From the NCBI RefSeq assembly GCF_000359745.1, contig NZ_AQHN01000011.1:62001-126000 (forward strand): DNA of 64,000 nt, read 5' to 3'. The position numbers and the translations under genes are program-made. Numbering within the stretch: position 1 is the stretch's first letter; every line of letters begins with the position of its first letter. The stretch comes from Rhizobium freirei PRF 81 (GTDB lineage Bacteria; Pseudomonadota; Alphaproteobacteria; Rhizobiales; Rhizobiaceae). Positions 25,773 to 28,561 of this stretch are shown one piece after another. A model generated the notes under the pieces. It ran no database searches. It was not told the origin of the DNA and worked only from the letters and a program-made list of their open reading frames with translations.

Positions 25773-26675
25773 ATGTCTGAACGCAATATGCCTGGACGCC
25801 TGCCACCTCTGAATGCATTGCGGTCCTTTGACGCCGTGGCGCGGCGCGGCAGCATTTTGAAGGCGGCGGATGAACTCGGCGTCGTGCGCGGCGCTGTCCG
25901 GCAGCAATTGAATCTGCTCGAAGCCTATTTCGGCGTACCTCTGTTCGAGCGGGAGAACGGTCGGCTCGTATTGACGGCCAAGGGCGGGGCGTTTGCCGAT
26001 TCCGTCGGTATCGCTTTCGGCATTCTTGCGCGCGCTGCCGCGGAGCTATCTGAGGGAGGCCGGCGCGTCCTCCGTCTCGGCGTTCCCTCTGCCTTTGCCG
26101 TCTGGTGGCTGATGCCGCGTGTTGCCGATCTGCAGGCCGCCCTTGAAGGCATCGATATAGACATCGTGCCGATGGCGACCGTCGAGCCTCTGGCCAGACG
26201 CGCCGATCTCGAAGCAGTGATCATGGGTGGAGAATACAGGCCAACGCGCGATATCACCGCCATACGCTTCATGGAGGATGAGTTCGGTCCCGTCGCCGCG
26301 CCGGATGTCGCGGCACGCCTCGTCCTTGGCACCGGCGTTGCGGCCTTGGCCGGCGCGATGGCGCTGGGCAGCCGTTCCGCACCGAGCCTCTGGGATGACT
26401 GGTTCGCGGAAAGCGGCCACGCACCTGTTCGCTTCGCGGCCAAACGAGAATTCGAGGATCTGCTGCTCGCGATCGGTGCCGCCCGCTCGGGCCTCGGCGT
26501 TGCCATTGCCCCGCGTACGGCCGTTGGCGACGATCTCGGACGTGGCACGCTGATCGCGCCTTATGGTTTCATTCGGCGGCCAGCCGGGTATAGCCTCAGC
26601 ATTCGCAGCAGCGACACGAAGGATCCCGCGCTCGTCCGGCTGGCGGATTGGTTGAGCGGGGCAGGGGCTGGATAA
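25773..26675 (+). CDS. LysR-family (GcvA-like) regulator
   Basis: A 300-residue LysR regulator of the GcvA type, recognisable from GRLPPLNALRSFDAVARRGSILKAADELGVVRGAVRQQLNLLEAYFGVPLFERENGRLVLTAKG in the DNA-binding part, where the usual SAVS recognition residues read RGAVRQQ. The effector domain starts near RRVLRLGVPSAFAVWWLMPRV. It is followed 145 bases downstream, on the same strand, by a S-adenosylhomocysteinase paralogue. Control of that gene is plausible but inferred from position. Confidence 0.9.
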   Translation: MSERNMPGRLPPLNALRSFDAVARRGSILKAADELGVVRGAVRQQLNLLEAYFGVPLFERENGRLVLTAKGGAFADSVGIAFGILARAAAELSEGGRRVLRLGVPSAFAVWWLMPRVADLQAALEGIDIDIVPMATVEPLARRADLEAVIMGGEYRPTRDITAIRFMEDEFGPVAAPDVAARLVLGTGVAALAGAMALGSRSAPSLWDDWFAESGHAPVRFAAKREFEDLLLAIGAARSGLGVAIAPRTAVGDDLGRGTLIAPYGFIRRPAGYSLSIRSSDTKDPALVRLADWLSGAGAG

Positions 26676-26820
26676 CTTTTTCTGGCAATGCATCAGTCCC
26701 GAGTCAGAGGGTTGATGGGAATGGCAGATTTTCTGCCATATGACGCATTCCAATGTTCATCGACAGGTTGCTGCCCGTCGTGCCAGATCGCCACATCGAA
26801 GCAGCAGCCAGGAGCACATC

Positions 26821-27984
26821 ATGGATCAATCCTCTTCTCTGTCCCGTATCGATTGGGTTGCCCAAAGCTGCCGGCTGCTGGTTGCAACTGCCGCGGAGTT
26901 TCGCGGGACGAAACCCTTTGCCGGCTTGACGATCGGCACCGGCATTCATCTGGAGCCGAAGACGGTCGCGTTGCTGATGACGCTACGCGCCGGCGGTGCG
27001 AGCCTCGTCTGCACCGGCAATCTCAACAGCACCCAGCCGGAAACGGTGGATTATCTGCGGGCGCGGGGCATCAAGGTCTTTGCCACACAGACCCGCGATG
27101 CCGATGAGCATGGCGCAAGCCTCGATGTGATCCTGGCGGAAAAGCCGGATCTACTGCTCGACAATGGCGGCGATCTCTTTGCCCGTGCCGCCGACAAGCC
27201 CTATCCCAGCCTGCTTGGCGGCACGGAGGAAACCACCTCCGGCCGCACCCGGCTGCTGCCGATGCGCGATAGGCTCAACATGCCGATCCTCGTCATCAAC
27301 GACAGCCCGATCAAGCAATTCGCCGAAAACCGGCATGCCGTCGGACAGAGCCTATTCGAGAGCTATCTGCGCTTCACCAATCGCTCCACCAACGGCAAGC
27401 GCGTCACCGTCTTCGGTTATGGCGCCTGCGGTAAGGGAACGGCAGCGTGCTTCCGCAACGCCTTTTCCGCTGTCAGCGTCGTCGATATCGATCCGGTCAC
27501 GACGCTCGAAGCGCATCTCGATGGCTTCACGACGCCGCTGCGCGAAGCGGCGATCCGTTCCGCCGATATTCTCGTAACAGTTACCGGCTATCCGAATATC
27601 ATCACGGTGGCTGATCTGCCTTTGATCAGAGATGGCGCGATCCTGATGAATGGCGGCCACTTCCCGCATGAGATCGACGTCGAGGCATTCCGCAGCAGCC
27701 TCGAGGTCGCCGGCATCGATCGTTACGAGGCTGAACATATCGAGACCGTGCGTATGCGCGACGGCCGCGCCTTCCACATTCTCGGCGGCGGCCATATGGC
27801 CAATCTCGCCGGCCCGCGCCCGCTCGGCAATACGGTCGAATCCATGGACCTTGGCTTCACCCTGCAGGCTCGCTGCCTCGAGCGAGTCGCCAAGGGCGGG
27901 CTTGGCAGCGAGGCTTGCGTCATCCCGGTCCCCGCCGATATCGACGCCGTGGTCGCCTCCGCCTATCTGGATCTGGCGCGCTAG
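26821..27984 (+). CDS. S-adenosylhomocysteine hydrolase-like protein with altered active site
   Basis: A 387-residue NAD-dependent protein related to S-adenosylhomocysteinase but shorter than rhizobial AhcY (about 466). Residues 38-55 (TIGTGIHLEPKTVALLMTL) hold the His equivalent. LLLDNGGDLF (residues 111-120) corresponds to the canonical DDGGD but has Asn115. TEETTSGRTRL retains the Glu. NDSPIKQFAEN retains Lys165 but has Glu169 where Asp is usual. The NAD-binding loop is VFGYGACGKG (residues 197-206). The C-terminal tail ending in KPxHYRY, which reaches the neighbouring subunit's NAD in true AhcY, is absent. The ATG at 26821 follows AGGAG by six bases. A LysR gene lies upstream. The substrate may differ from S-adenosylhomocysteine. 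Confidence 0.85.
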   Translation: MDQSSSLSRIDWVAQSCRLLVATAAEFRGTKPFAGLTIGTGIHLEPKTVALLMTLRAGGASLVCTGNLNSTQPETVDYLRARGIKVFATQTRDADEHGASLDVILAEKPDLLLDNGGDLFARAADKPYPSLLGGTEETTSGRTRLLPMRDRLNMPILVINDSPIKQFAENRHAVGQSLFESYLRFTNRSTNGKRVTVFGYGACGKGTAACFRNAFSAVSVVDIDPVTTLEAHLDGFTTPLREAAIRSADILVTVTGYPNIITVADLPLIRDGAILMNGGHFPHEIDVEAFRSSLEVAGIDRYEAEHIETVRMRDGRAFHILGGGHMANLAGPRPLGNTVESMDLGFTLQARCLERVAKGGLGSEACVIPVPADIDAVVASAYLDLAR

Positions 27985-27997
27985 CAAAAAAGAGCGG

Positions 27998-28561
27998 TCA
28001 GGCCCCGGCCAGCGCCTCCGGCAGTAATCGATCGTAAAGCCCGGCCATCTCATCGCCGAAGCAGCAGAAAATGATCTCGCCGAAAGCGCCATCGGCGCTT
28101 TCGGCAACGGCGATGCGCGTGGCGATCCCTGCTGCTGGCGTAGCTGGAAAGCGATAGATGCCCGTGGAGATGGCAGGGAAGGCGATGGTTCTGAGGCCAT
28201 GTTCGCGGGCAAGGCCTAAGCTGTTGCTATAGCAGCCCGCCAGCAGCTCGTCCTCGCCATTGGCGCCGCCGTTCCAGAGGGGGCCGACCGTGTGGATGAC
28301 ATGCCTCGCCGGCAGGCGATATCCCTTGGTGATCTTCGCTTGCCCGATCTTACACCCCTTCAGCATCCGGCATTCGGCGACAAGGTCCGGCCCCGCGGCT
28401 CGGTGGATCGCGCCATCGACGCCGCCTCCGCCGAGAAGGCTGCTGTTGGCGGCATTGACGATGGCATCGACGGAAAGCCTGGTAATGTCGCCGAGAACGA
28501 CGGTGAAGCGTGTCCCGGTCGTACCTGAGAGATCGGAGCGAATGGTTTCAAGCGCGGACAT
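27998..28561 (-). CDS. macrodomain protein, O-acetyl-ADP-ribose deacetylase-like
   Basis: A 187-residue protein that is almost entirely one macrodomain of the YmdB/MacroD type, hydrolysing O-acetyl-ADP-ribose or removing mono-ADP-ribose. Motifs: [37 protein letters not shown], with the Asn/Asp pair and glycine loop that bind ADP-ribose, then [12 protein letters not shown], and [13 protein letters not shown], the distal-ribose/phosphate loop. It converges on the SAHH-like gene (13 bases between stops) and lies 30 bases downstream of a LysR gene on the same strand. Confidence 0.92.

Follow-up and report, generated by a model that had tools for sequence, protein, structure and literature searches.

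What does a protein of the S-adenosylhomocysteine (SAH) hydrolase type do when it stands apart from AhcY, a family usually treated as having one reaction? The question is raised by a gene of Rhizobium freirei PRF 81, here called SAHHp (SAH-hydrolase-like paralogue; Table 1), in a 64,000-nucleotide stretch of contig NZ_AQHN01000011.1 (hereafter the window). A preliminary description, made from the letters of the window, had read the gene as a paralogue with changed catalytic aspartates and no C-terminal tail, and had proposed, with a LysR gene upstream, a new substrate or a regulatory role in place of methyl-cycle service. The clade to which SAHHp belongs lacks the C4′ acid/base, is under purifying selection, sits in varied nucleoside-gene clusters of Rhizobiaceae and Vibrionaceae and is present also where AhcY was not found, and it offers a clear test of whether the 3′-ketone trick of SAH hydrolases was reused for other chemistry. 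Methyl-cycle reconstructions may miscount the gene; the clade members of Vibrio nigripulchritudo and V. fortis are annotated as adenosylhomocysteinase in database records.

Table 1. Features of the SAHHp locus, in window positions
Feature	Position	Strand	Details
SAHHp (SAH-hydrolase-like paralogue)	26821..27984	+	387 aa; H43/E45/K47, D114-N115-G116, E137-T138, K165...E169-N170, GxGxxG 199-204, H280
LysR-family regulator, GcvA-like	25773..26675	+	168.7 bits, below model cut-off 288; immediately upstream of SAHHp
Palindrome ATGGCAGA-TTT-TCTGCCAT	26721..26739		Between LysR gene and SAHHp; likely LysR operator (predicted)

Family assignment and active-site residues of SAHHp

The reading frame of SAHHp is free of internal stops. 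An alternative in-frame ATG upstream, at 26740, would give a protein of 414 aa, but the homologues start near residue 1 of the 387-aa version. Two Pfam domains were matched, AdoHcyase (4e-14) and AdoHcyase_NAD (7.9e-29), and the closest solved structures were the SAH hydrolases of Thermotoga (5tov, 8.8e-67; 3x2e, 9.8e-67) and Pyrococcus (7r37, 3.6e-64), matches that exclude a chance resemblance. Copies 93-94% identical to SAHHp are present in Rhizobium lusitanum and R. miluonense (among the best 80 of 174 GTDB contigs), and dN/dS against four Rhizobium orthologues was 0.06-0.10, indicating purifying selection. A structure predicted with 27 close Rhizobium sequences reached a mean pLDDT of 74.2 and a pTM of 0.72, with low confidence at the active site (pLDDT <50 at 162-175 and 323-338). 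Foldseek placed SAH hydrolases at the top (3x2f, 1.0e-31), yet at a TM of just 0.54; thus the model supports the SAH-hydrolase fold but not the active site.

Residues were mapped by alignment to the Pyrococcus chain, for which the offset to the published numbering was constant and was verified on Glu57, Lys59 and His298. Asn115 of SAHHp aligns with Pyrococcus Asp128, that is, mammalian Asp131, the C4′ acid/base, and K165-Q-F-A-E169-N170 is the mammalian Lys186/Asp190/Asn191 motif, with Glu169 at the Asp190 position. E137, T138, K165, H43 and H280 are retained (Glu156, Thr157, Lys186, His55 and His301, respectively), as is the GxGxxG motif for NAD. The earlier claims of Asn and Glu in place of the two aspartates, and of an intact Glu, Lys and NAD site beside them, were thus borne out by the alignment. 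Mutagenesis of Asp130/Asp189 has reportedly been carried out on rat SAH hydrolase. According to the available text of PMC4647836, Asp131 performs the C4′ proton transfer, Asp190 and Glu156 bind the 2′-OH, Lys186 and Thr157 the 3′-OH, and His55, Asp131 and His301 the 5′-OH; among the catalytic residues given there, Asp131 and Asp190 are the only ones changed in SAHHp. By these roles, the parts for 3′-oxidation are kept and the part for C4′-C5′ elimination is gone.

H43, E45 and K47 make up the HxExK base motif (E45/K47 are Pyrococcus Glu57/Lys59, and H280 is His298), which is the motif of hypoxanthine-preferring enzymes and whose Glu/Lys pair contacts inosine N1 and O6 (PMC10978960). The Lys/Tyr tail described as missing is indeed absent: the match to 5tov stops at residue 386 of its 407-residue chain, and beyond it 21 residues follow in 5tov and three in SAHHp. 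As a special feature, however, this absence did not hold, since it is normal in archaeal-type SAH hydrolases (PMC10978960) and thus not diagnostic.

With the archaeal-type SAH and S-inosylhomocysteine (SIH) hydrolases (Thermotoga maritima 5tov, Pyrococcus furiosus 7r37/7r38 and the Methanocaldococcus SIH hydrolase), SAHHp has in common the fold, the NAD domain, HxExK, the short C-terminus and the Lys/Glu/Thr/His site. It differs from them in Asp131 to Asn, Asp190 to Glu and His353 to Asn337, in a length ~18 residues below even that of the Thermotoga chain, and in the nucleoside-gene contexts of several of its branches. AhcY (TIGR00936, with the copy in the R. freirei genome) is of the same superfamily, and from it SAHHp differs in lacking Asp131/Asp190 and the Lys/Tyr tail, in having HxExK for HxTxE and in forming a separate clade. 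As it fails the Asp131/Asp190 feature of both, SAHHp was filed neither as AhcY nor as SIH hydrolase.

The two substitutions are linked and define a clade

The homologue set consisted of 187 distinct sequences from 249 loci, among which 127 carry Asn plus Glu, 59 carry Asp plus Asp and one (Klebsiella) has other residues at both sites; a single one of the two changes was found in none of the 187. Because this 127/59/1 split is defined by the two residues themselves, a tree was made with both diagnostic columns masked (IQ-TREE, 73 rows, 43 Asn/Glu representatives), and it is this tree and the complete linkage that provide independent evidence. The Asn/Glu representatives formed a single clade (support 99/98; 98% of 200 bootstrap trees), with a long-branch warning from the program that includes the V. 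nigripulchritudo member. E45, K47, T65, G66, V174, G175, C203, N328, E340 and G345 are invariant in all 127 members, and the His353 equivalent is Asn337 in 126 and Asp in one. A clade separate from AhcY, with conserved residues of its own, was thus recovered as the preliminary description had envisaged. No paper on the Asn/Glu clade was found in full-text searches, whose coverage excludes most subscription journals, and the terms paralog, Asp131 and D131 are absent from the accessible part of a 2026 review of SAH hydrolases (PMC13406329).

Distribution of the clade relative to AhcY

The survey covered sampled Pseudomonadota genomes, GTDB contigs with near-identical peptides (the best 80 of 174) and plasmids, using a five-sequence profile on which clade members scored at least 418 bits and the other proteins listed at most 278. 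At this threshold of 418 bits, members were found in 2 of 337 genomes class-wide and 7 of 398 phylum-wide (the R. freirei genome counted in both), in 12 of 247 Vibrionaceae genomes and in 20 of 247 Rhizobiaceae genomes from 13 of 109 genera (again with R. freirei counted). Five of the Rhizobiaceae copies are on large plasmids. Within the genus, SAHHp is present in 48 of 59 genomes (E <1e-100), in one of them split over two frames (G018), and missing from 11, two of which keep remnants (G034:C38:49008-49361 and G056:C10:114610-114804), a pattern of occasional loss in Rhizobium.

The R. freirei genome (7.08 Mb, 96 contigs) encodes an ordinary AhcY on a separate contig (G000:C91), which is 34% identical to SAHHp over residues 129-379. 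With a standard AhcY query, full AhcY was detected in all nine non-Vibrio clade-bearing genomes tested, whereas in each of the 11 Vibrionaceae tested SAHHp was the sole close homologue of SAH hydrolase, two further weak matches (24-25% identity) being to another protein. SAHHp is thus either redundant with AhcY or alone. Given the separate clade, the AhcY of the same genome and the Vibrionaceae members without AhcY, methyl-cycle service is unlikely and a different substrate likely, in support of the earlier proposal.

A LysR gene and a palindrome upstream of SAHHp in Rhizobium

The LysR gene is the steadiest neighbour of SAHHp within the Rhizobium branch, lying directly upstream on the same strand at 67 of 80 Rhizobium-type loci (best 80 of 174). 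The palindrome between the two genes contains the sole exact occurrence of TGGCAGANNNTCTGCCA in the 7.08-Mb genome. Its core site, at 11 or more of 12 bases, was found at 54 of 68 loci with LysR (window included) and at 2 of the 13 that lack it (p 1.9e-5 by Fisher's test, a value to be taken as indicative since the loci are related); at 10 of 12 bases the counts were 65 of 68 and 2 of 13, respectively. Among shuffled controls, 4 of 1620 reached 11 of 12. The core is absent from the clade copies on plasmids and from those outside Rhizobium. The LysR link suggested earlier is therefore real in Rhizobium, where the palindrome tracks the LysR gene. The LysR protein is likely a dedicated regulator of SAHHp with one local target, and the palindrome its putative operator.

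A role of the palindrome as terminator was rejected, no T-run following it in the window or at four further loci. Around it (26711-26749), the bases flanking the core vary among Rhizobium species and often remain complementary, extending the pairing past the core at many loci; such flanks could point to a hairpin in RNA in addition to an operator in DNA.

The other genes around SAHHp in Rhizobium (nudix-, Pit- and glycolate-oxidase-like, identified by eye) represent local synteny, and a panel of nucleoside genes (see below) gave no match at any of the 80 Rhizobium-type loci (best 80 of 174). Just downstream of SAHHp, on the opposite strand, lies a macrodomain gene of the O-acetyl-ADP-ribose deacetylase type (27998-28561), present at only some Rhizobium loci.

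Nucleoside genes adjoin SAHHp in several lineages outside Rhizobium

The fixed panel of proteins from such contexts was applied to 47 SAHHp loci, of which 42 came from outside the GTDB and same-genus sets (nearly all other loci with flanks) and only five from the genus Rhizobium. Among them, one Rhizobium-genus locus (L018) is just 4.2 kb long, L117 and L233 represent one plasmid, as do L122 and L235, and L223 and L224 share a genome. Nucleoside genes (for a deaminase of adenosine or cytidine, NupC, a nucleoside hydrolase or a ribokinase) were found beside SAHHp at 15 of the 47 loci, in five lineages, and at none of 10 ordinary ahcY loci from clade-bearing genomes (p = 0.049), a statistically weak difference given that the loci are non-independent and the panel was drawn from the positive loci themselves. 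The remaining 32 SAHHp loci had no such genes, and since only five of the 47 are of the genus Rhizobium, the share is far lower over both locus sets (47 + 80). The weight of the context evidence rests not on the p-value but on the variety of the neighbours: three families of transporters and two of deaminases, spread over five deep branches of the tree.

In V. nigripulchritudo, genes for a nucleoside hydrolase, SAHHp, an adenosine deaminase and a ribokinase stand in a row (families checked), followed past the ribokinase by a DeoR gene on the opposite strand, a hypothetical gene and then NupC. NupC lies directly downstream of SAHHp at five other Vibrionaceae loci from four genomes. At five Rhizobiaceae loci, LacI-like and ABC-transporter-like genes (by eye) and a cytidine deaminase gene precede SAHHp, the ABC binding protein resembling PotD weakly; at two others, the opposite strand carries a cytidine deaminase gene along with one for a sodium symporter, and an IclR gene is behind SAHHp. 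An adenosine deaminase gene precedes SAHHp at locus L247, and a 2′,3′-cyclic-nucleotide phosphodiesterase-like gene is nearby at three loci (456.9 against a cut-off of 486 for the copy at L223). At four loci of the Photobacterium type, of which two represent one plasmid, Na+/H+-antiporter-family and alanine-dehydrogenase-family genes take the place of nucleoside genes.

The cytidine deaminases beside SAHHp at L193:6194-6637 and at L245 (7353-7784, SAHHp turned to +) carry PCAEC, the more usual motif being PCGAC, and reached 101-102 bits on TIGR01354, whose cut-off is 113.65; these adjacent deaminases may have a substrate other than cytidine. An unlinked cytidine deaminase as partner in Rhizobium was rejected: there was one match per genome in 18 genomes (35-41% identity), 10 with and eight without SAHHp, and thus no co-occurrence. 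The presence of adenosine deaminase was uninformative, as it was found in 8/8 other clade-bearing genomes checked. No link of 2′-O-methyl nucleosides to SAHHp emerged from the accessible part of PMC12709175.

Proposed function and its alternatives

The explanation that we consider best, and hold with about even confidence, is that SAHHp would be a nucleoside-catabolic enzyme derived from an archaeal-type (HxExK) SAH hydrolase and switched by LysR in Rhizobium, not a second AhcY. Its chemistry probably differs from its database name, as judged from a separate branch without the key catalytic acid and from the nucleoside genes adjoining it in several other lineages. We infer that a 6-oxo (deaminated) or 5′-substituted nucleoside would bind via the HxExK pocket and that bound NAD+, with Lys165/Thr138, would oxidise its 3′-OH. 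With the C4′ acid/base replaced by Asn throughout the clade, C4′-C5′ elimination would be disfavoured, and the 3′-ketone would most likely drive chemistry at C2′/C1′, either release of the base or an altered configuration at C2′, with Glu169 oriented toward the 2′-OH; NADH would finally reduce the ketone back. The full version of this proposal, a redox nucleoside enzyme in which 3′-oxidation was kept, the C4′ base removed and the ketone put to releasing the base or inverting a sugar carbon, is a tentative suggestion. To our knowledge, no nucleoside-cleaving or -epimerising enzyme is known in the SAH-hydrolase superfamily, and none was found in literature searches. NAD-dependent glycosidases of family GH4 use a 3-keto intermediate and C2 elimination; they serve as a working analogy only (3-OH oxidised, C1 group lost, re-reduction), with no homology claimed. 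Nucleobase was a side product of SAH hydrolase in every set-up of PMC10978960.

Several observations count against this explanation. The branch of the window has no adjoining nucleoside genes, and a nucleoside role there would be an extrapolation from the other branches. In V. nigripulchritudo, release of the base would be redundant, since a nucleoside hydrolase is already there. The geometry points to no obvious residue for a C2′ step, with Glu169 on the 2′-OH side and the H2′ of a ribonucleoside toward the NAD face. Furthermore, the gene is missing or a remnant in 11 of 59 same-genus genomes.

The strongest rival is that SAHHp hydrolyses SIH (or another 5′-thio-inosine) in the classical way, the part of Asp131 being taken by a water or a different residue: a deaminase would make the inosine form of SAH or of a thioether nucleoside, which SAHHp would split into inosine and a thiol. 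Present data leave both readings standing, and this one we rate as rather unlikely. It would account for the E45/K47 pair that 127/127 members have within HxExK, the motif of SIH-preferring enzymes, for a C-terminus as short as in archaeal-type enzymes, and for the V. nigripulchritudo operon, in which adenosine deaminase, SAHHp, nucleoside hydrolase and ribokinase would be given one step each. Yet the clade has Asn/Glu throughout where the aligned SIH-preferring enzymes (Thermotoga and Pyrococcus) have Asp/Asp, and the neighbouring cytidine deaminase, NupC and cyclic-nucleotide phosphodiesterase-like genes suit plain nucleosides better. Human AHCYL proteins are described as dead or regulatory paralogues of SAH hydrolase, and SAHHp might likewise be a catalytically dead or regulatory NAD/nucleoside-binding protein, for example a sensor or a modulator of AhcY. 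We consider this improbable, although the acid used in the mechanism given in the available text of PMC4647836 is lost, the R. freirei genome also encodes AhcY, SAHHp has a LysR gene of its own and its Rhizobium branch is without nucleoside neighbours. The NAD motif and the 3′-oxidation residues are retained and the gene is under purifying selection, so a purely regulatory, non-catalytic role, one of the two options of the preliminary description, is not supported; moreover, the tested Vibrionaceae have no AhcY to modulate, and the contexts outside Rhizobium contain metabolic enzymes and transporters. An ordinary second AhcY for the methyl cycle, its substitutions tolerated, would agree with the same fold and domains and with a score of 289.8 bits on NCBIfam NF004005 ('adenosylhomocysteinase'), above the cut-off of 275, but is very unlikely: on TIGR00936, the ahcY equivalog, SAHHp scored 254.2 bits against a cut-off of 497.6, the clade is separate, standard AhcY is present in the R. 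freirei genome and in 9/9 non-Vibrio genomes tested, the motif is HxExK and not HxTxE, and the contexts are common to 0/10 ahcY loci.

SAH-hydrolase-like genes outside the clade

Paralogues of Paenibacillus, Roseateles, Klebsiella, Rubrobacter and Nonomuraea fall outside the clade. On a plasmid of Roseateles sp. XES5, two tandem genes of the Asp/Asp type with a degenerate DDGGD (L118:6676-9188) adjoin genes for a LacI protein, an ABC transporter of the sugar type, an amidohydrolase and a nucleoside hydrolase, and represent another branch of SAH hydrolases in a nucleoside-gene cluster. A very divergent gene on a Klebsiella pneumoniae plasmid (L120:7974-9083; CEMGAD, KEGLHN), flanked by an HPP-family gene and cobT, is without the catalytic aspartates by a different route from the SAHHp clade.
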